From NCBI GenBank assembly GCA_019314185.1, contig JAFCZU010000026.1, forward strand, positions 1 to 16,225: a DNA stretch of 16,225 nt, in the 5' to 3' direction. The notes below the pieces were generated by a model. The model made no database searches. It was not told where the DNA came from and worked only from the letters and a program-made list of their open reading frames with translations. Shown here one piece after another: positions 5,971 through 13,817 of the stretch; within the stretch, counting starts at the first letter, position 1, and each line of letters starts with the position of its first letter. The DNA comes from Deltaproteobacteria bacterium. GTDB lineage: Bacteria > Desulfobacterota > Desulfobacteria > Desulfobacterales > ETH-SRB1. Position numbers and translations under genes: made by a program.

Positions 5971-5995
5971 AGTAGTTGCTGCTAATAAGGTGTTT

Positions 5996-6565
5996 ATGCA
6001 AAATAAAGATAATATTTCAAAAAAACCTCTGACACCAGCTATGGAAGATTATCTGGAGGCTATTTTTAATCTGGGTAAGGAAAAAAGAGTTGTCAGGGTA
6101 AAGGATATTGCCAAAAGGCTCAAGGTAAAGATGCCCACGGTTACAAGTATGCTCAAAACCCTTAGTAAGAGGAAATTAATCAATTATGAAAAATATGAGT
6201 ATCTTGAACTGACAAAAAAAGGGTTTGAAGTTGGCAGAGAAATACATCGGAGACATCATATCTTACGGAGCTTTCTGACGGATATCTTAAATATAGATTT
6301 TAAAAAAGCCGATGAAGAAGCCTGCAAAATGGAACATGCTGTCAGCGCCTCAACGCTTGACAGGTTTATAGAGTTTATGGAATTTATTCAATTCTGCCCG
6401 AGGGTAGGGTTAGACTGGCTGAAATATTTTGATGAATACCGGCTGCATGGTCAGGAACCGGATAAATGTCTGGCCAGGATGAAAGAATTTGCAGGTGGAT
6501 TCAAGGTCAGGATAAATACCATGAAAGAGGTGGAGAATAAAAATAATGGTGTTAAGCAGAATTGA
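5996..6565 (+). CDS. DtxR-family iron-dependent transcriptional regulator, short form
   Basis: A 189-residue regulator counted from ATG 5996, which has AAGGTG just upstream; a GTG at 5990 would add two residues. The N-terminal winged helix-turn-helix (about 12-75) has LTPAMEDYLEAIFNL and a recognition helix around MPTVTSMLKTL. The dimerisation/metal domain has HRRHHIL (His87/His88) and EEACKMEHAVS, where Cys110, Glu113 and His114 match the DtxR-type ligand set. The Cys lies where MntR has Glu, which favours Fe(II) over Mn(II) sensing by family knowledge. The FeoA-like SH3 domain of full-length DtxR is absent; separate feoA genes follow instead. The gene overlaps feoA1 by 20 bases and probably represses the feo genes when iron is sufficient. 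Confidence 0.88.
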   Translation: MQNKDNISKKPLTPAMEDYLEAIFNLGKEKRVVRVKDIAKRLKVKMPTVTSMLKTLSKRKLINYEKYEYLELTKKGFEVGREIHRRHHILRSFLTDILNIDFKKADEEACKMEHAVSASTLDRFIEFMEFIQFCPRVGLDWLKYFDEYRLHGQEPDKCLARMKEFAGGFKVRINTMKEVENKNNGVKQN

Positions 6566-6761
6566 TCCGGGGGAAGAGGTTACTCTTATAGATATTGATG
6601 GAGGAAGAGGGGTCAGGTCAAAGCTTTATAGTATGGGGCTTGTGCCTGGAATAACCCTTAAAATCTTGAGTCGGAACGGTTCAGGGCCTGTTATGATTGC
6701 GGTTAGAGATTCCAAGCTGGCTATCGGTCGAGGGATAGCGGAAAAGATTATCGTAGAATAA
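6546..6761 (+). CDS. feoA: FeoA-family protein 1
   Basis: A 71-residue SH3-like FeoA protein with the family core LYSMGLVPGITLKILSRNGSGPVMIAVRDSKLAIGRGIAEKI cut into recognisable parts: the GLVPG turn at about 32-36, GPVMI at 47-51, and the terminal GIAEKIIV strand. FeoA is a small cytoplasmic partner of the Fe(II) transporter FeoB. The start lies inside the end of the DtxR gene (ATG 6546), so regulator and FeoA are translated from the same message. This copy is separated from feoA2-feoB by 250 bases of repeats and may be a regulatory rather than transport-linked FeoA; that is inference. Confidence 0.88.
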   Translation: MVLSRIDPGEEVTLIDIDGGRGVRSKLYSMGLVPGITLKILSRNGSGPVMIAVRDSKLAIGRGIAEKIIVE

Positions 6762-6779
6762 TTTTTTTTCTTTTTAAAG

Positions 6780-6793
6780 TTAGATAGTTCTAA
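6780..6793. promoter_or_regulatory. Small dyad TTAGATAGTTCTAA, possible metal-regulator site
   Basis: TTAGA-TAGT-TCTAA is a perfect 5-bp inverted repeat directly after feoA1. The first 12 bases recur exactly at 11175-11186, in the leader of the NifX-like operon, and TTAGATA also occurs upstream of the DtxR gene. Identical 12-mers are expected by chance a few times in a window of this size, so this is only a candidate operator. Confidence 0.25.
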
Positions 6794-6832
6794 TTGCAAT
6801 AGATAATACTAAACAATTGAGGTGACTACCCA

Positions 6833-6982
6833 CGTAGTCAGGCCGAAGCTGTTCAGATTGAAGGGGTCAGAAGAACATGATTGCCGCATTTTCGCTTTTT
6901 CCTAACGGTCTTCAGCCTATCTACCTGAGTAGGGTGGATTAAGCAAAGCGAATCCACCAAAAAGCGGAAAGTGTCCCGCTTT
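6833..6982. repeat. Composite palindromic repeat between feoA1 and feoA2
   Basis: The 250-base gap between the feoA genes contains overlapping inverted repeats. GTAGTCAGGCCGAAG (6835-6849 region) is partly inverted at 6905-6924. GGTGGATT (6933-6940) pairs perfectly with AATCCACC (6951-6958). AAAGCGG (6961-6967) pairs with CCGCTTT (6976-6982). CGCATTTTCGCTTTTT upstream is roughly inverted around 6957-6972. The GGTGGATT...AATCCACC unit resembles repeats common in proteobacterial intergenic regions. No gene is supported here. The block may end the DtxR-feoA1 transcript and carry the start of the feoA2-feoB one. Confidence 0.6.
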
Positions 6983-7011
6983 AAGTTGGTAGCACAGAGG
7001 AGGTTTATAAA

Positions 7012-7245
7012 ATGAGTAAAATAATGATGCGAAAAATGAAGGATAACCAGTCCGGGATTATATCTGCTGTGAAGATTGGAGGCGAACTAGGCCGGCGCAT
7101 ACGTGATATGGGTCTTGTTCCGGGAGCGGGCATTAAGGTTAAAGGCCGCGCGCCTTTGTATGATCCTGTGGCTTTGAAAGTCATGGGGTTTACCCTGACT
7201 CTTCGGAACAATGAAGCAGACCATATAGAAGTGGAGGTGGAATAA
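7012..7245 (+). CDS. feoA: FeoA-family protein 2
   Basis: A 77-residue FeoA protein with RRIRDMGLVPGAGIKVKGRAP in two recognisable parts, then DPVALKVMGFTLTLRNNEADHIEV, the typical SH3-like ending. A perfect AGGAGG ribosome binding site precedes the ATG at 7012. It is only two bases from feoB, so this copy is the probable direct partner of FeoB at the inner face of the membrane. Sequence identity with the first FeoA looks low beyond the MGLVPG core, which argues for two specialised paralogues rather than a recent duplication. Confidence 0.92.
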   Translation: MSKIMMRKMKDNQSGIISAVKIGGELGRRIRDMGLVPGAGIKVKGRAPLYDPVALKVMGFTLTLRNNEADHIEVEVE

Positions 7246-7247
7246 AA

Positions 7248-9470
7248 ATGGAAACAAAAATAGCTTTAGCAGGAAATCCAAACTCCGGCAAAACCACCCT
7301 TTTCAACGAGCTTACCGGCGCTCGTCAGCATGTGGGCAATTATCCGGGAGTTACTGTGGAAAAGAAAGAAGGCACACATGTCCATGATGGACATCACATA
7401 CATATTGTGGATCTTCCGGGGGCATATTCTCTTACAGCGTATTCCCTCGAAGAAGTGGTTGCCAGGGATTTTCTAATTAATGAAAAACCGGATGTGGTCA
7501 TTGATATAATCGATTCGTCAAACCTGGAGAGAAACCTTTACCTTGCGATTCAATTTCTTGAAATGGGCATTCCCCTGTGTATCGCTCTCAACATGATCGA
7601 TGTGGCTGAAAAAAGAGGAATTAAAATTAATGCGGAAAAACTTTCAACGCTGTTAGGGGTTCCAGTTGTTCCAACAATTGCCAGAACCGGTAAGGGAAAA
7701 AATAATCTCATAGACGCAGCCGTAAAGGTGGCTCAGGGAAAAAGAAAGCAGAATAATCTTAAAATATCCTACGGAGACAATCTGGACAGAGCGCTTCTTG
7801 AAATGGAAGAGGAAATCAAGGCCAATGAATTTTTAATTCATACATACAGGGCGCGCTGGATTGCCTTAAAATATCTGGAAGATGACAAACAGATTCTGTC
7901 AAAAGGACGAAAAAATAATCCTTCTCTGTCTGCAAAGCTTGAGAAAATGGTGAAGAAGGTTTCACAGCATTTGGAGAGAACCCTGAACACCTATCCTGAA
8001 GCCATGATTGCAGATCAACGATACGGTTATATTAACTCTATTATAAAGCAAGGAGTTGTTCAGCAGAAGCAAGATCAAAACAGGCTCTATACGTCTGATA
8101 AGATAGATCTGGTTGTCACCAACCGTTTTCTTGGTCCTATCATTATGCTGGCAGCGCTTATGGGACTGTATCATTTTACGTTTACCTACAGCGAAATTCC
8201 GGTGAGCTTGTTCGAAAGCTTTTTCGGATGGCTTGGGAATGCGGCATCTGTCCACCTGCCTGACGGCCTTCTTAAATCTCTTGTTGTTTCGGGTATCATT
8301 GACGGTGTTGGAGGCGTTCTTGGGTTTGTGCCGCTTATTATGTTCATGTTTTTCGGAATTGCCCTGTTGGAGGATTCAGGATATCTCGCCAGAGTTGCCT
8401 TCATGTTGGACAGGATATTCAGGGTCTTCGGTCTTCACGGCAGTTCAGTCATGGCCTTTATCGTATCCGGCGGTATTGCCGGAGGCTGCGCTGTGCCCGG
8501 TGTCATGGCAACCCGTACCATTAAATCACCGCGTGAACGTCTGGCGACATTGCTCACGGTTCCATTTATGAATTGCGGGGCAAAGCTGCCGGTCTTTGCG
8601 CTTTTAATTGCGGCTTTTTTTCCGAAAAACGAGGCAACAATGATGCTGATCATTACAATTATTGCCTGGCTGGGCGCCCTGCTTGTTGCAAAATTATTGA
8701 GAGTCACGGTTATTAAAGGAGAATCCGCTCCTTTTATCATGGAGCTTCCCCCGTACCGTTTCCCAACATTTAAAGGGCTGGCCATACACACCTGGGAAAG
8801 GACATGGCAATATATTAAAAAGGCAGGAACGGTTATTCTCGGTGTTTCAATTATTCTGTGGGCAATGATGACCTTTCCCGGTTTGCCGGATTCTAAAGTA
8901 CAGGAATTTGAATACCAGCGTGAAGCTGCAAAGGCGTCAGCCCCTATGACTATTGTCAGAGGATTGGAGGAAGCTGGTGAAGAGACCGGATTTTCTCAAG
9001 AAGCGCAGGATCTGAAAAATCGGCTGATACTCATTGATTTACGGGAAGCGGAAGAGGGCTTAAGAAATTCCGCGGCCGGCCGTTTTGGAATAGCCCTGGA
9101 GGGTATATCGAAGTGGGCGGGCTTTGACTGGCGTACCAATATTGCCCTCGTGGGTGGTTTCGCAGCCAAGGAAGTGGTTATTTCGGCCCTGGGCACTGCT
9201 TATTCCCTGGGTGAGGTTGACCCGGAGGAGAGTGACTCTCTTTCTGAAATTCTGACCAAAACCCCGGGCTGGAGCCCGCTTGTCGCATTGAGCCTGATCA
9301 TTTTTACCATTTTCTACGCACCCTGTTTTGTTACTGTGGTCATGATTGTGAGAGAATCCGGTTCGTGGAAATGGGGAGCTTTTTCCATGGCGTTTAACAC
9401 GACTCTGGCCTTTGTGTTGGCTGTGTTTGTATTTCAAATCGGTTCGACAATGGGTATATTGGGAGGTTGA
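7248..9470 (+). CDS. feoB: Ferrous iron transport protein B, GTP-driven Fe(II) transporter
   Basis: A full-length 740-residue FeoB. The N-terminal G domain has G1 GNPNSGKTT (9-17), G2 NYPGVTVE (31-38), G3 DLPG (55-58) and G4 NMID (115-118), followed by a helical GDI-like segment to about residue 270. The membrane part starts near 285 and contains the two Gate regions, with GGIAGGCAVPGVMATRT and PFMNCGAKLPVF carrying the conserved cysteines thought to line the iron path. A charged soluble loop (about 550-620, rich in Glu) sits between membrane segments. FeoB imports Fe(II) across the inner membrane in anoxic or low-oxygen cells. It is in one unit with feoA2; a very short ORF with a strong ribosome binding site follows. 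Confidence 0.96.
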   Translation: METKIALAGNPNSGKTTLFNELTGARQHVGNYPGVTVEKKEGTHVHDGHHIHIVDLPGAYSLTAYSLEEVVARDFLINEKPDVVIDIIDSSNLERNLYLAIQFLEMGIPLCIALNMIDVAEKRGIKINAEKLSTLLGVPVVPTIARTGKGKNNLIDAAVKVAQGKRKQNNLKISYGDNLDRALLEMEEEIKANEFLIHTYRARWIALKYLEDDKQILSKGRKNNPSLSAKLEKMVKKVSQHLERTLNTYPEAMIADQRYGYINSIIKQGVVQQKQDQNRLYTSDKIDLVVTNRFLGPIIMLAALMGLYHFTFTYSEIPVSLFESFFGWLGNAASVHLPDGLLKSLVVSGIIDGVGGVLGFVPLIMFMFFGIALLEDSGYLARVAFMLDRIFRVFGLHGSSVMAFIVSGGIAGGCAVPGVMATRTIKSPRERLATLLTVPFMNCGAKLPVFALLIAAFFPKNEATMMLIITIIAWLGALLVAKLLRVTVIKGESAPFIMELPPYRFPTFKGLAIHTWERTWQYIKKAGTVILGVSIILWAMMTFPGLPDSKVQEFEYQREAAKASAPMTIVRGLEEAGEETGFSQEAQDLKNRLILIDLREAEEGLRNSAAGRFGIALEGISKWAGFDWRTNIALVGGFAAKEVVISALGTAYSLGEVDPEESDSLSEILTKTPGWSPLVALSLIIFTIFYAPCFVTVVMIVRESGSWKWGAFSMAFNTTLAFVLAVFVFQIGSTMGILGG

Positions 9471-9635: not shown

Positions 9636-10982
9636 ATGCATAATCAAGAACGGGACATAATCCTTGATTCGATTACCGAGGGCGTTTTTACCGTGGATTG
9701 CTATTGGCGTGTTACATCCTTTAACAGGGCTGCTGAAACCATAACCGGAATCTCTCGAGAGGAGGCGCTTGGTCAGCCGTGCAAGGATATTCTGCGGGCG
9801 GATATCTGTGAAGGGGATTGCGCTCTTCAGGAAACTATTCGCACAGGGAAACCGATTGCAGGCAAAGGAGTGACGATTCTTGATGCTGATGGGAATCGTC
9901 ACCCTATCAGCATCTCCACCGCTATTTTGAAGAACAACGAAGGCCGGATTATAGGAGGTGTCGAGACTTTTCGAGATCTTACGATGATCGAACAGCTTCG
10001 AAAGGATATTGAGCGCAACTACTCCTTTGAGGATATCATTAGTCGCAGCCACCGTATGCGTGAGATCTTTGATGTCATTCCCCGGGTTGCTGACAGCAGA
10101 AGCACTGTGTTAATACAGGGTAAGAGCGGAACAGGAAAGGAGCTTGTTGCCAGGGCTATTCACAAACTGAGTCCTCGCGGGAGCAGGCCTTTTGTTGCTG
10201 TCAATTGCGGGGCGCTTCCGGACACGCTTTTGGAATCAGAACTTTTTGGTTACAAAGCAGGCGCTTTTACTGATGCCAGAAAGGATAAGCCAGGACGTTT
10301 TGCCCTTGCGGAGGGCGGGACTCTTTTTCTTGATGAAATTGGTGATGTCTCACCAGCTTTACAGATTCGCCTGTTACGTTTTTTGCAGGAACGGGTTTAT
10401 GAACCATTAGGTTCTGTCCAATCAATTAAGGCAGATGTGCGGGTTATCGCTGCAACCAATAAGAATCTGACAATTTTGGTTGGGGATGGTAAATTTCGCG
10501 AGGACCTTTTTTACCGGATCAACGTGGTGCGAATTGATCTCCCACCTCTTCGAGAGCGCATGGAAGATATCCCGCTTCTTGTCGACCACTTCATAGCGCG
10601 TATGAACCGCATGCAGGGCAAAAAAGTGACGGGTATTGCCGACGAGGTGCTTACCTGTCTGATGTCTTATAATTATCCGGGTAATGTGCGTGAGTTGGAA
10701 AATATTATTGAGCGGGCTTTTGTGTTCTGTTCTTCAGGAGAGATTGAATCAAAGCATCTTCCTGAACCGTTATGCGGCAAGGCTTGTGTGGAATATCCCA
10801 GGCAGGCGGAATTTGTGAGCTTCAAACAGATGGAAGCCGCTTTTCTGATGAATGCGTTGCGACGTAATAACTGGAACCGTTTAAAGACGGCTATGCAATT
10901 AGGCATACACAAGACTACACTTTTCCGAAAAATCAAGTCTCTGGGACTTGAAATTCCTTCTTCCGGTAAACAATCCCGATGA
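9636..10982 (+). CDS. PAS-containing sigma54-dependent transcriptional activator
   Basis: A 448-residue enhancer-binding protein. A PAS domain (about 5-118) carries three cysteines, Cys49, Cys58 and Cys62, in PCKDILRADICEGDC, which suggests redox, metal or Fe-S sensing (inference). The AAA+ domain (about 132-365) has Walker A GKSGTGKE (163-170), Walker B TLFLDEIGD, the REDLFYRINV sensor region and the NYPGNVRELEN motif. The sigma54-contacting loop reads GAFTDA (209-214) instead of GAFTGA. A Fis-type helix-turn-helix ends the protein (about 395-437, NRLKTAMQLGIHKTTLFRKI). No response-regulator domain is present, so activity is probably set by the PAS domain. No good ribosome binding site precedes ATG 9636, but no nearby alternative start is better. 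The adjacent sigma54 promoter and dyads at 10998-11149 are its likely target. Confidence 0.92.
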   Translation: MHNQERDIILDSITEGVFTVDCYWRVTSFNRAAETITGISREEALGQPCKDILRADICEGDCALQETIRTGKPIAGKGVTILDADGNRHPISISTAILKNNEGRIIGGVETFRDLTMIEQLRKDIERNYSFEDIISRSHRMREIFDVIPRVADSRSTVLIQGKSGTGKELVARAIHKLSPRGSRPFVAVNCGALPDTLLESELFGYKAGAFTDARKDKPGRFALAEGGTLFLDEIGDVSPALQIRLLRFLQERVYEPLGSVQSIKADVRVIAATNKNLTILVGDGKFREDLFYRINVVRIDLPPLRERMEDIPLLVDHFIARMNRMQGKKVTGIADEVLTCLMSYNYPGNVRELENIIERAFVFCSSGEIESKHLPEPLCGKACVEYPRQAEFVSFKQMEAAFLMNALRRNNWNRLKTAMQLGIHKTTLFRKIKSLGLEIPSSGKQSR

Positions 10983-10997
10983 TTTTTTTCTTTCACT

Positions 10998-11014
10998 GGT
11001 GCGATTGTGCTACC
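10998..11014 (+). promoter_or_regulatory. Upstream activator site 1 (imperfect dyad)
   Basis: GGTGCGATTGTGCTACC is an imperfect version of site 2, with one base missing in the left half. It begins 16 bases after the stop of the sigma54 activator gene. GCGATTRTGCTAC is shared with site 2 at a distance of exactly 33 bp, about three helical turns, as expected for an activator binding two sites on the same DNA face. Confidence 0.6.
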
Positions 11015-11029
11015 TGACCACTCATAAAG

Positions 11030-11047
11030 GGTAGCGATTATGCTACT
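11030..11047 (+). promoter_or_regulatory. Upstream activator site 2 (perfect GTAGC dyad)
   Basis: GGTAGCGATTATGCTACT contains the perfect inverted repeat GTAGC-GATTAT-GCTAC. Its centre is about 97 bp upstream of the -24 element at 11135, a normal enhancer distance for sigma54 activators. Binding by the Fis-type domain of the adjacent regulator is inferred from position and symmetry. Confidence 0.65.
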
Positions 11048-11080
11048 TAACTTCACCTGTTTTGCCACACGCCTGATATA

Positions 11081-11093
11081 TAACCTGATGATT
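11081..11093 (-). promoter_or_regulatory. Possible IHF site between enhancer and promoter
   Basis: On the minus strand the sequence reads AATCATCAGGTTA, which fits the IHF consensus WATCARNNNNTTR at all defined positions but one. It lies between the paired activator sites and the sigma54 promoter, where IHF-assisted looping is usual. The consensus is degenerate, so this is a tentative call. Confidence 0.35.
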
Positions 11094-11133
11094 ATAAACG
11101 ATTTCTAATTAAAGTGTTGTTTTGCTGTTGGTG

Positions 11134-11149
11134 TGGTACGAGAATTGCT
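11134..11149 (+). promoter_or_regulatory. Sigma54 (-24/-12) promoter
   Basis: TGGTACGAGAATTGCT matches the sigma54 consensus TGGCACGNNNNTTGCW at every defined position except one (T for C at position 4), with correct spacing between the GG and GC dinucleotides. Transcription would start near 11160, giving a leader of roughly 85 bases before the NifX-like gene. The activator gene immediately upstream and its two dyad sites make this the most convincing promoter in the window. Confidence 0.8.
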
Positions 11150-11205
11150 TTGTTAATTAAAATGTTAAAGGCTTTTAGATAGTTCTTTTAGTGCGGCTTA
11201 TTCTT

Positions 11206-11240
11206 CTCTCCCAATCGTGGGAGAGGGCCAGGGTGAGGAG
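11206..11240 (+). repeat. REP-like hairpin in the leader of the NifX-like gene
   Basis: CTCTCCCA-ATCG-TGGGAGAG is a perfect 8-bp stem with a 4-base loop (11206-11225), followed by GGCCAGGGTGAGGAG. The combination resembles the dispersed proteobacterial repeat CTCTCCC...GGGAGAGGGCCAGGGTGAGGG. Its last bases (GAGGAG, 11235-11240) provide the ribosome binding site for the ATG at 11247, so the repeat has become part of a functional leader and may affect translation or RNA stability. Confidence 0.6.
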
Positions 11241-11246
11241 ATAACA

Positions 11247-11636
11247 ATGATAGTGGCAATTTCTGTATGGTCTGACCAGGTTTCTACTGTCTTTGACTTT
11301 GCGCGTCACATCCTTTTGGTGGAGTTGGATGGTGGTAACGAGATTGGTCGGAGCGAACACCCTCTTAAAGAAGGGTCACTGATCTTTCCGGCCGGGGAAT
11401 TGTCACGCTTTGGTGTTGATGTGCTGATTTGCGGAGCAATCTCCCGTTCCATGGCCAGAATTGTGGAAAGTTATGGGATTGAAATCATTCCGTTCGTCCG
11501 CGGTACCGTAAATGATGTGTTGAGTGCATACTTGACCGGTCAGCTCGCAGATTCATGTTTCTGTCTTCCAGGTTGTCGGCCTGGCACGAGGAGGGATTGG
11601 AGACGGAGGCATTGTTTTAGGGGCGGCCGCTGGTGA
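11247..11636 (+). CDS. NifX/NifB-type (dinitrogenase Fe-Mo cofactor biosynthesis) domain protein
   Basis: A 129-residue single-domain protein counted from ATG 11247, which follows GAGGAG; the GTG at 11217 lies inside the repeat hairpin and is unlikely. The fold is the NifX/ORP type: MIVAISVW, FDFARHILLVEL, a central GVDVLICGAISRSMARIVE helix-strand pair, then VNDVLSAYLTGQL. The C-terminus has FCLPGC and an Arg-rich tail, as seen in small NifX-like proteins outside nitrogen fixation. Family members bind metal or metal-sulfur clusters in the cytoplasm. It is the first gene after the sigma54 promoter and is followed at 22 bases by a DUF89 gene. No nif structural genes are in the window, so a role in nitrogen fixation is not supported. 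Confidence 0.82.
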   Translation: MIVAISVWSDQVSTVFDFARHILLVELDGGNEIGRSEHPLKEGSLIFPAGELSRFGVDVLICGAISRSMARIVESYGIEIIPFVRGTVNDVLSAYLTGQLADSCFCLPGCRPGTRRDWRRRHCFRGGRW

Positions 11637-11658: not shown

Positions 11659-12543
11659 ATGAAAACTTATTTTGAATGTATTCCATGTCTTCTTCGACAG
11701 ACTTTTGAGGCAGCCAGACTTACGACTGATGATGAGACGATCCACGAGCAGGTGCTCCGTAAGGTGTTGCGTGCAGCAAGCGAGATGAATCTGCGGGAAT
11801 CTCCCCCGTTTATGGCTCAACGTATCCACCGCCTGATTCGTCAGATGACAGGCAACAATGACCCGTACTGTGACATCAAGGATCGTTTCAACCATTTCGC
11901 TTTAGCGCTTTATCCGGAGCTTAAAGAGGGTATCGAGTTGTCTCGCAAGCCATTGGATACGGCAATTCGCCTGGCTATTGCTGGCAATATCATCGATTCC
12001 GGTGTAAATCATCATATAGACGAGACACATGTTCACAATGCAATTGAGCATGCGTTGACAGCGCCGCTTGCAGGAGATCCGGAAGAGTTTCGCGAAGCAG
12101 TATCTGAGGCAAAAGATATCCTCTATCTAACGGACAATGCCGGGGAAATTGTTTTTGACCGCTTGCTCATTGAGCAAATGCCGCTCGAGAAAATAACCCT
12201 TGCAGTAAAGGGGAGCCCGATTATTAACGATGCTTGCATTGTTGACGCTCAAGCAACAGGTATGGCTGACCTTGTTGAAGTTATTGATAACGGTTCTGAC
12301 GCCCCTGGTACCATTCTGGGTGAATGTTCAGAAGGATTTAAACGGCGGTTTGAAAACGCTGATCTGATCATAGCAAAGGGGCAGGGGAACTACGAAACCC
12401 TCAGCGATGTTAAAAAGGACATTTTTTTTATGCTCAAGGCAAAGTGTCCTGTAATCGCTCACCACGTCGGCTGTGAGGTGGGTAGTCTGGTTTTTCTCAG
12501 AAGTGCCTCAGGGGATAGCGTCTATGGTGGGGAAAAAATGTAA
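11659..12543 (+). CDS. DUF89 family protein, probable metal-dependent phosphatase
   Basis: A 294-residue canonical DUF89 protein of the short bacterial/archaeal type. The N-terminus MKTYFECIPCLLRQ carries the CxxC pair (Cys7, Cys10) typical of this subgroup. The metal-binding core is LTDNAGEIVFD with Asp159 and Asn160, and VIDNGSDAPGT with Asp214. LIIAKGQGNYETLSD carries the conserved Lys, and AKCPVIAHHVGCEVGSLVF is the usual ending. Characterised DUF89 proteins are Mn- or Ni-dependent phosphatases, several in metabolite damage control. Its position between a NifX-like protein and small metal-binding proteins suggests a link to cofactor or metal handling, which is inference. It shares motifs with the larger divergent protein at 1463. 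Confidence 0.9.
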   Translation: MKTYFECIPCLLRQTFEAARLTTDDETIHEQVLRKVLRAASEMNLRESPPFMAQRIHRLIRQMTGNNDPYCDIKDRFNHFALALYPELKEGIELSRKPLDTAIRLAIAGNIIDSGVNHHIDETHVHNAIEHALTAPLAGDPEEFREAVSEAKDILYLTDNAGEIVFDRLLIEQMPLEKITLAVKGSPIINDACIVDAQATGMADLVEVIDNGSDAPGTILGECSEGFKRRFENADLIIAKGQGNYETLSDVKKDIFFMLKAKCPVIAHHVGCEVGSLVFLRSASGDSVYGGEKM

Positions 12544-12557
12544 AGGAGGTGATAGAA

Positions 12558-12749
12558 ATGCCAAGAGGTAATGGAACAGGACCGCCTCAAGGTAGAGGCG
12601 GCGGCGGAAGAATGGGTGGTCCATTTGCCGCAGGGCCGGACGGGGTGTGTGTTTGTCCGAAATGCGGACACAGGGTTTCGCATGTTCGCGAGCAACCCTG
12701 CAACAAGATGGCTTGTCCAAAATGTGGTACTGCAATGACAAGAGGTTAA
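12558..12749 (+). CDS. Small glycine-rich zinc-ribbon protein
   Basis: A 63-residue protein counted from ATG 12558; a perfect AGGAGGTGAT ribosome binding site precedes it and the in-frame GTG at 12549 is part of that site. It starts MPRGNGTGPPQGRGGGGRMG, the same type of glycine-rich opening as the next gene. Two CPKCG knuckles follow (VCVCPKCGHRV and ACPKCGTAM) with another Cys between them, a pattern for one zinc or iron site of rubredoxin or zinc-ribbon type. It lies 14 bases after the DUF89 gene and is surely in the same operon. The partner is unknown. Confidence 0.8.
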   Translation: MPRGNGTGPPQGRGGGGRMGGPFAAGPDGVCVCPKCGHRVSHVREQPCNKMACPKCGTAMTRG

Positions 12750-12773: not shown

Positions 12774-13136
12774 ATGCCAGGTGGAGATGGAACAGGCCCG
12801 GTTGGACTGGGGCCAATGACAGGACGCGCAGCTGGTTACTGTGCAGGATATGGGACTCCGGGTTTTACGACCGGTATGCCTATACGTGAGTTTGGCAGAT
12901 GGCCGCGCGGTGGTGGCAGGGGACGACGAAATCGATTCTACGCTACTGGACTTACCGGTTGGCAAAGATCCGCGTATGGTTACCCGGGTGGTTCATATGG
13001 AATGCCCTATGGAGAACCACTCGGTCCGACCCCTACCAGAGAGCAAGAACTCAATGTACTCAAGGAGCAGGCTGAAGATCTTGAAGATACGCTTAACGGG
13101 ATCAAAAAGCGTATTGAGGAGATAGAAAAGAAATAA
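12774..13136 (+). CDS. DUF5320-type glycine-rich protein with C-terminal coiled coil
   Basis: A 120-residue protein. The N-terminal MPGGDGTGPVGLGPMTGRAA is the signature of DUF5320-type proteins found near NifX, Mrp and ferredoxin genes in anaerobes. A Gly/Arg/Tyr-rich low-complexity middle (about 20-85) is followed by a short coiled coil (about 87-120, EQELNVLKEQAEDLEDTLNG and on). AAAGGAGGG stands before the ATG. Only one cysteine is present (Cys24 region, AGYCAGYG). Function is unknown; the shared N-terminal type with the preceding small protein suggests both dock to the same partner. Confidence 0.8.
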   Translation: MPGGDGTGPVGLGPMTGRAAGYCAGYGTPGFTTGMPIREFGRWPRGGGRGRRNRFYATGLTGWQRSAYGYPGGSYGMPYGEPLGPTPTREQELNVLKEQAEDLEDTLNGIKKRIEEIEKK

Positions 13137-13161
13137 GGGTTATAACAGTAGAACAGTATGG

Positions 13162-13190
13162 CGGAGCAGGGTAGCAGCTACTCTGCTCCG
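13162..13190 (+). terminator. Strong 13-bp hairpin after the DUF5320 gene
   Basis: CGGAGCAGGGTAG pairs with CTACTCTGCTCCG around a CAG loop, a 13-bp stem with a single G-T wobble, 25 bases after the DUF5320 stop. No T-run follows, so it may not end transcription alone. It could be a processing or stability element that lowers expression of the ferredoxin-CDF part relative to the NifX-DUF89 part. Confidence 0.6.
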
Positions 13191-13202
13191 TAAACATACA
13201 GC

Positions 13203-13345: not shown

Positions 13346-13442
13346 ACAGCAACAGGACTAAATTAAAATGAGCAGACAGAAGTTTGTTTGAGAAATTTCA
13401 CTTGATTTTTAATAGTTGACACGAAAAAAAGGAGGCTGAAAA

Positions 13443-13817
13443 ATGCCATGGGTTAATCAGGAGATGTGTAATGGTTGCGGTATTTGTATAGATGAATGCC
13501 CGGTGGGAGCGATTACGCTCAATGAAATAGATAAAGCACAGATTGATGAAGAGTCATGTATTCGTTGTGCAAAGTGCCATGATGTTTGTCCTGAGGATGC
13601 AGTGCGGCATGACAGTGAAAAAATTCCGGACCAGGTAGAGGAGAATCTCGAAAAGACCCGTAAACTTTTAAAATACTATGATACCTCTGCTGATCAGCAA
13701 GCGTTTATAGAGCGCATGATACGTTATTTCAACAAAGAACGAAAGGTGACCGAACTTACCATTGAAAAACTGAAAGCTTTAAAAGATGATATGGCCGGAA
13801 GTACCGCATCCTCATGA
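13443..13817 (+). CDS. 2[4Fe-4S] ferredoxin with helical C-terminal extension
   Basis: A 124-residue protein. Two cluster-binding motifs are complete: CNGCGICIDECP (9-20) and CIRCAKCHDVCP (about 40-51), each CxxCxxC...CP, so two [4Fe-4S] clusters are expected. Residues 60-120 are a charged helical extension not found in minimal ferredoxins (short runs such as KTRKLLKYYD and KERKVTELTIEKLKALKDD). AAAGGAGG stands before the ATG at 13443. A TTGACA-like hexamer lies only about 30 bases upstream, too close for a normal promoter, so transcription may come from further up, through or from the MITE. It is 15 bases before the CDF gene and likely coupled to it. Confidence 0.92.
   Translation: MPWVNQEMCNGCGICIDECPVGAITLNEIDKAQIDEESCIRCAKCHDVCPEDAVRHDSEKIPDQVEENLEKTRKLLKYYDTSADQQAFIERMIRYFNKERKVTELTIEKLKALKDDMAGSTASS

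Follow-up and report, generated by a model that had tools for sequence, protein, structure and literature searches.

The region at positions 10998 to 11149 of the window (the whole stretch of 16,225 nucleotides analyzed here) very probably comprises a sigma54 enhancer and promoter through which the activator encoded immediately upstream would switch the NifX-DUF89-small protein-DUF5320 operon. A sigma54 switch is rated this highly because the same layout of two dyads plus promoter recurs beside related activators in other anaerobes. Comparison of these loci establishes, at the level of sequence, the elements themselves, their fixed geometry, and their linkage to both the activator family and NifX genes.

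Control region and operon in the window

The features on which the analysis is based are the following.

9636 to 10982, plus strand: PAS-AAA+-Fis HTH activator, i.e., an enhancer-binding protein (Pfam Sigma54_activat 3e-68, PAS_9, HTH_8)
10998 to 11014, no strand assigned: dyad 1, GGTGCGATTGTGCTACC (from the sequence; conserved in relatives)
11030 to 11047, no strand assigned: dyad 2, GGTAGCGATTATGCTACT (from the sequence; conserved in relatives)
11081 to 11093, minus strand: IHF-like site AATCATCAGGTTA, one mismatch to WATCAANNNNTTR (from the sequence; positional enrichment in relatives)
11134 to 11149, plus strand: predicted sigma54 promoter TGGTACGAGAATTGCT, with -24 GG and -12 GC (from the sequence; kept in relatives)
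11160, plus strand: predicted transcript start, placed 12 bases downstream of the -12 GC
11247 to 11636, plus strand: NifX-like gene (Nitro_FeMo-Co; Pfam PF02579, 2.8e-9)
11659 to 12543, plus strand: DUF89/ARMT1-like gene (Pfam PF01937, 2.4e-67; PDB relatives 2ffj and 2g8l)
12549 to 12749, plus strand: small CxxC-rich protein, 66 amino acids from GTG (ORF list; no Pfam match)
12774 to 13136, plus strand: DUF5320 gene (Pfam PF17253, 2.3e-21)
13156 to 13199, plus strand: strong RNA hairpin after DUF5320, without a T run (z-score -3.5; 0 of 200 shuffles as stable)

The activator has the hallmarks of an enhancer-binding protein, namely, a Sigma54_activat domain, a GAFTDA loop (GAFTGA type), and a Fis-type HTH. 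Its Walker A motif reads GKSGTGKE, with a Lys at the second position that is found in no other relative among those compared. By eye, the ORF list places two FeoA-like genes and FeoB upstream of the activator (6546 to 9470), preceded by a gene for a DtxR/MntR-type-looking regulator (5990 to 6565); the switch thus adjoins genes for ferrous iron uptake.

The activator stop codon is separated by 265 bp from the NifX ATG (11247), and the gaps between the NifX, DUF89, small protein, and DUF5320 genes measure 14 to 24 bases or less. For the small CxxC-rich protein, an in-frame ATG at 12558 matches a ribosome site better than the GTG does. Between DUF5320 and the ferredoxin and cation-efflux/NifX fusion genes that follow there is a gap of approximately 300 bp with a sigma70-like match inside it (13416 to 13444), which, together with the hairpin at 13156 to 13199, suggests that the sigma54 operon ends after DUF5320, possibly at the hairpin.

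The two dyads 33 bp apart of the original prediction were confirmed, at 10998 to 11014 and 11030 to 11047, the right half-sites (GCTAC) lying at 11009 and 11042. The left arm of dyad 1 has one base missing compared to relatives (the dyad 1 position of relative L126 reads GGTTGCGATTGTGCTACC), and with the weight matrix described below, dyad 1 scored lower than dyad 2 (13.2 and 16.7 bits, respectively). The promoter at 11134 to 11149 likewise proved to fit the sigma54 consensus at all but one position, as had been claimed, the single mismatch to TGGCAC-N5-TTGCW being C to T at the fourth base. Double dyads with a spacing of 30.5 to 34.5 occur exactly once in the window. When matching was loose, the dyad pattern (up to three mismatches) was found 24 times in the window compared to 16.7 expected, a count reached in 21 of 200 shuffles, and the sigma54 pattern (up to two mismatches) eight times compared to 8.8 expected. 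On their own, the window motifs therefore show no excess over chance with loose matching and are suggestive only; it is because of its conservation across relatives that the dyad-promoter arrangement stands above chance.

The NifX 5' leader also contains a REP-like perfect palindrome, CTCTCCC-N6-GGGAGAGG, followed by GGCCAGGGTGAGG (11206 to 11226), which looks like a mobile REP-type repeat. It accounts for two matches in the window (one palindrome read on both strands) versus 0.02 expected, and it was found in none of the 201 other loci searched.

Conservation of the two-dyad layout

A genome search was performed on 291 genomes sampled evenly from the class of the relative G003 (Deltaproteobacteria; the genome of locus L003). 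At a cutoff of E 1e-150, 177 of them contained an activator relative, many genomes of the class having several. Four close orthologues stood out at 77 to 80% identity, the next best relative reaching 62%. All four have NifX downstream of the activator and both dyads, which read GTTGC-N6-GCTAC (dyad 1) and AGTAGC-N6-GCTACT (dyad 2) and are separated by exactly 33 bp; in all four the -24/-12 element is kept, with AGGCAC replacing TGGCAC in one. The promoter lies 93 to 94 bp past the center of dyad 2 in the four orthologues and 95 bp past it in the window. The length of the activator-to-NifX gap, in contrast, varies widely, from 229 to 648 bp, and in the alignment of the close control regions the conserved islands are both dyads, a central TAAC..TGTTTTTAAA-like block, and the promoter. 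The outcome that had been named in advance as speaking against the switch, orthologous loci with neither dyads nor a -24/-12 element, is thus contradicted in four of four cases, both being kept at matching distances.

The genes that follow are less constant. L123 carries an ORP-like set with NifX, ferredoxin, DUF5320, and Mrp/NBP35, and L124 an ORP-like set with NifX, ferredoxin, DUF5320, and MinD-type ferredoxin ATPases; a DUF89 match was found in none of the four close-orthologue stretches, two of which (L125 and L126) are short contigs, that of L126 ending just past NifX. Since the downstream genes differ among the close orthologues, the switch is better conserved than the set of genes behind it.

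That the dyads lie directly 3' of the activator stop codon would also suit hairpins that terminate or attenuate transcription of the activator gene. We rejected this reading, which retains a minimal probability, on the grounds of folding and geometry: the dyad RNA folds no better than shuffles (z-score -0.79), no terminator-like prediction and no Rfam family coincide with the dyads, and the 33-bp spacing and the distance to the promoter are fixed across relatives. In locus L063 (see below), moreover, the module exists without an upstream activator.

To extend the comparison beyond the close orthologues, a DUF89 scan of genome contigs was carried out, which gave at least 80 loci; an activator match was present in 18 of the best 80 DUF89 loci listed. 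From the listed DUF89 loci and the genome searches we took 70 distinct activators, 43 of which are followed by NifX at a distance of no more than 700 bp. In 41 of these 43 activator-NifX gaps there is a sigma54 element with a score of 8 or more out of 10, compared to 4.3% of shuffles. Dyads were sought with a symmetric weight matrix (threshold, 10) trained on the same 43 gaps; scored on these training gaps, it found at least one dyad in 37 of them versus 3.8 per shuffled set and two dyads in 23 versus 0.1 per shuffled set, so that at this threshold 6 of the 43 gaps have no dyad and 20 have fewer than two. A strict dyad-pair criterion, superseded by the matrix, had detected pairs in just 10 of the 43 gaps versus 0.2% of shuffles. 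The resulting dyad consensus is approximately RGTNGCA per arm, the GC cores being separated by 5 or 6 bases.

The same elements were then scored at 40 further activator loci plus 3 others, corresponding to 42 activators outside the training set. In the first 300 bp downstream, a dyad was found for 21 of the 42 test activators; for coding and distal stretches the counts were 2 of 42 and 5 of 38, respectively. A sigma54 element was detected for 20 of the 42, compared to 8 of the 42 coding stretches and 2 distal stretches. A caveat is that some test loci have near relatives among the training rows (L165 and L139 are almost identical in the tree). The NifX-linked test gaps outside the training set (n = 13) had a dyad in 11 cases and a sigma54 element in 11 cases, whereas for activators without a nearby NifX, both sets combined, the first 300 bp contained a dyad in 21 of 56 cases and none in 35. 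Where two sites were present in NifX-linked gaps, they were spaced 31 to 34 bp apart in 24 of 28 cases and 22 to 24 bp apart in the other four, i.e., about three or two helical turns, respectively. Searching related genomes for the dyads and a sigma54 promoter beside orthologues of the activator, as the original prediction had proposed, therefore recovered the layout, including in most of the NifX-linked distant relatives.

Going by record titles, the full module is present in Deltaproteobacteria/Desulfobacterales and in Planctomycetota, where an activator relative was detected in 4 of 294 genomes at a strict cutoff of E 1e-175. In one Aminicenantes contig (L045), NifX is preceded by dyads and a perfect promoter. 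The sigma54 activator-interacting domain was found in all six relative genomes tested.

These data also bear on whether most transcription of the operon might start at a sigma70 promoter or continue through from the activator gene, the sigma54 element being minor. No terminator is predicted inside the 265-bp gap to NifX, as read-through would need; on the other hand, the plus strand from 10983 to 11247 has no sigma70-like match, and the sigma54 element recurs in the 41 of 43 gaps noted above, which makes transcription of this kind highly unlikely as the main route.

A possible IHF site had also been proposed between the dyads and the promoter. Two IHF-like sequences with one mismatch each are present in the window spacer, AATTAAAGTGTTG (plus strand) and AATCATCAGGTTA (minus strand); just the latter (11081 to 11093, its center approximately 46 bp upstream of the -24 element) sits where the matches of relatives do, i.e., in the bin 40 to 49 bp upstream. 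At up to one mismatch to WATCAANNNNTTR, 13 of 45 spacers have a match versus 8.5 expected, no clear overall excess. One-mismatch matches in the 40-to-49-bp bin numbered 11 versus 2.2 in local shuffles, and those in bins 40 to 59 numbered 12, with 0 of 200 shuffles as high (2 of 200 when two mismatches were allowed). The bins were set after the matches had been seen, making this positional excess supportive but not conclusive. The proposed site thus has support from its position, with no clear excess seen across whole spacers. A chance match, with bending either intrinsic to the AT-rich spacer (AT content of 70 to 75% in its middle) or unneeded, is a serious contender with something like one chance in three; it would account for the near-expected overall count but sits less well with the post hoc clustering at 40 to 49 bp and with the IHF requirement described for the orp operons of Desulfovibrio vulgaris (PMC3897727).

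Linkage of the dyads to the activator family

Specificity was examined by scanning 1,395,451 bases in 202 records, including the window, for pairs of dyads that each score at least 12 and are spaced 30.5 to 34.5 apart. The scan returned 42 double dyads, or 33 distinct places once overlapping records were removed; 40 of the 42 (31 of the 33 places) have an activator or NifX match no more than 600 bp away, and a promoter scoring at least 8 stands at the right distance from 40 of the 42. These figures are to be read in view of the fact that the records were chosen for activator or NifX-type genes and the matrix was partly trained on them, the sites themselves occupying gaps of a few hundred bases. 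Of the two exceptions, L058 has a double dyad upstream of DUF89 without a promoter, and L063 (1960 to 3621) has a double dyad plus TGGCACATAATTTGCT before DUF5320 and an Mrp/NBP35 ATPase, the family activator being absent nearby. In L001 and L003, the nearest DUF89 relatives listed for which sequence upstream was available (87% identity), neither an activator nor NifX nor a double dyad adjoins the DUF89 gene; their genomes encode one activator relative each, elsewhere, 56 to 57% identical and followed by a dyad and, 0.8 kb on, a NifX match.

A motif-first search, blind to the activator, was performed in the 291 genomes with a model built solely from the sequences of the five close control regions. 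At a cutoff of E 0.05, matches were obtained in 24 genomes versus approximately 15 expected by chance (estimated as 291 x 0.05). Each of the four close genomes gave exactly one match, at the known place. The next five matches had E values of 6e-6 to 4e-4, and three of them, which are close kin, lie ahead of NifX operons, their dyads being 33 bp apart; the other two are L208 and L210. At L208 (position ~1641, plus strand), one dyad and TGGTAT...TTGCT precede a family activator gene, pointing to possible autoregulation. At L210 (position ~1632, plus strand), dyads 31 bp apart and TGGCACACATTATGCT are followed by what by eye looks like an HdrC-type Fe-S subunit. The sole weak match inspected, L211, showed no module.

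The upstream gene had been taken to encode the cognate activator, an assignment that gains support from the linkage and from the motif-first return of NifX operons and of one family activator gene. It could nevertheless be that the switch is real and its dyads are bound by an activator of the same family encoded elsewhere, the adjacent gene being a mere neighbor or co-controlled. Many genomes of the class encode several activator relatives, and L063 has the full module without a nearby activator, both of which would fit such an arrangement. We consider it improbable given that the activator and dyads stay together in the four close orthologues and that 31 of the 33 distinct double dyads adjoin an activator or NifX gene.

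A link between a recognition-helix residue and dyad spacing was tried as a further argument for binding by the adjacent activator. A His at the marked helix position goes with 6-bp dyads in 39 of 41 activators, and an Asn or Asp with 5-bp dyads in 14 of 16, so that 53 of 57 raw cases agree, as expected if neighboring activators bound the dyads. The association is, however, not significant when phylogeny is considered, and to that extent leaves room for an activator encoded elsewhere: a tree of the 57 activators, with the HTH excluded, affords only 3 to 5 independent helix-spacing contrasts, about 2 of them in the expected direction, 0.3 to 0.4 in the opposite one, and the remainder equal. As a code it was rejected, and linkage, co-conservation, and motif-first recovery appear to be the stronger arguments for binding by the adjacent activator. 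In the same phylogeny, the clade of the window activator groups with planctomycete proteins (13 rows, support 100/95) and not with most desulfobacterial ones, making transfer of the activator gene between phyla possible.

Paired inverted repeats upstream of a promoter and conserved with an activator are what characterizes a sigma54 enhancer (UAS), and this is the arrangement found here. From it we infer how the switch may operate. The PAS-AAA+-Fis activator would bind, probably as paired dimers, to the two dyads, which are separated by approximately three turns of the helix, and the DNA between enhancer and promoter would bend, probably via an IHF-type protein. The bend would let the AAA+ ring reach an RNA polymerase-sigma54 complex waiting at the -24/-12 element, where ATP hydrolysis would open the promoter, with the NifX, DUF89, small protein, and DUF5320 genes being transcribed from about 11160. 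The PAS domain would gate this activation in response to a signal.

The PAS signal and relation to known systems

As to the nature of the signal, the PAS domains of all 112 activators examined contain a cysteine triad, CX8CX3C (residues 49, 58, and 62 of the window activator). It also occurs in the more distant activator L091 (41% identity), indicating that it is not peculiar to the family of the window activator, and is absent from L092 (also 41%); the control among unrelated activators comprised a single usable protein. Among PAS domains of solved structure, those closest in sequence include the cytoplasmic PAS domain of CitA and DcuS (E 2e-5 to 4e-4), a likeness that does not name the ligand. 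Because the triad is conserved, redox or metal/Fe-S status is plausibly the signal.

NtrC/NifA-type modules combine an AAA+ activator with a Fis-type HTH, paired inverted repeats about 100 to 150 bp upstream, a GG/GC promoter, and a possible bending site. In the window, the activator, the paired repeats, and the promoter correspond to these, with the IHF-like match as a candidate bending site. The window differs from them in its half-sites (GTNGC/TTGCA, with 5 or 6 bp between GC cores), in the PAS input with three conserved cysteines, and in its NifX-type targets.

A closer parallel is provided by the orp operons of D. vulgaris Hildenborough. As described in PMC3897727, these are controlled by the activator DVU2106 through palindromic sites and sigma54 promoters, with an IHF site between the activator sites and the promoter that is needed for full activity. 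The window resembles this system, DVU2106 being compared by its description, in having a one-component activator gene beside its targets, palindromes upstream of a sigma54 promoter, and a candidate IHF site between the two. The GAFTDA loop is shared as well, being among the loop variants listed for D. vulgaris activators in Table 1 of PMC4641369. The orp targets include NifX-type (Di-Nase) domains and ferredoxin-ATPases, according to PMC6345978, and both types recur in the orthologous operon of L124. In contrast to the two divergent orp operons, only one side of the activator in the window carries a target operon, which consists of NifX, DUF89, the small protein, and DUF5320 and has no Mrp-type or ferredoxin-ATPase gene; the orp gene set (Orp3, Orp4, Orp5, Orp8, and MrpORP) is absent from it. 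The activator sites also differ in position, at about -154 and -121 in the window and -131 and -88 in orp, whose IHF sites lie at -42, -79, and -43.

No paper on a wider regulon of this kind was found in the open literature, most subscription papers lying outside it, and the main text of a 2025 sigma54 survey (PMC12316311) does not contain the COG numbers of NifX-type and DUF89 proteins. The breadth of the system (Desulfobacterota, Planctomycetota, and one Aminicenantes contig) looks new, as does a DUF89-containing target. It is conceivable, at somewhat less than even chances, that these loci belong to a cross-phylum regulon of NifX/ORP-type, Mrp, DUF5320, and DUF89 genes, switched via one paired-dyad code by a PAS cysteine-triad sensor that perhaps bears a metal or Fe-S cluster. 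The Desulfovibrio orp system is thereby suggested to be a single case of a wider regulon; if true, metal-cluster carriers of anaerobes would be under a general sigma54 control, of which orp would be a local instance. The CX8CX3C triad is a lead toward the PAS signal, and the conservation of these cysteines makes the question of the signal testable. The motif and its exact geometry, for their part, offer a way to connect uncharacterized NifX, DUF89, and DUF5320 genes with a single sensor family amenable to in vitro assays.
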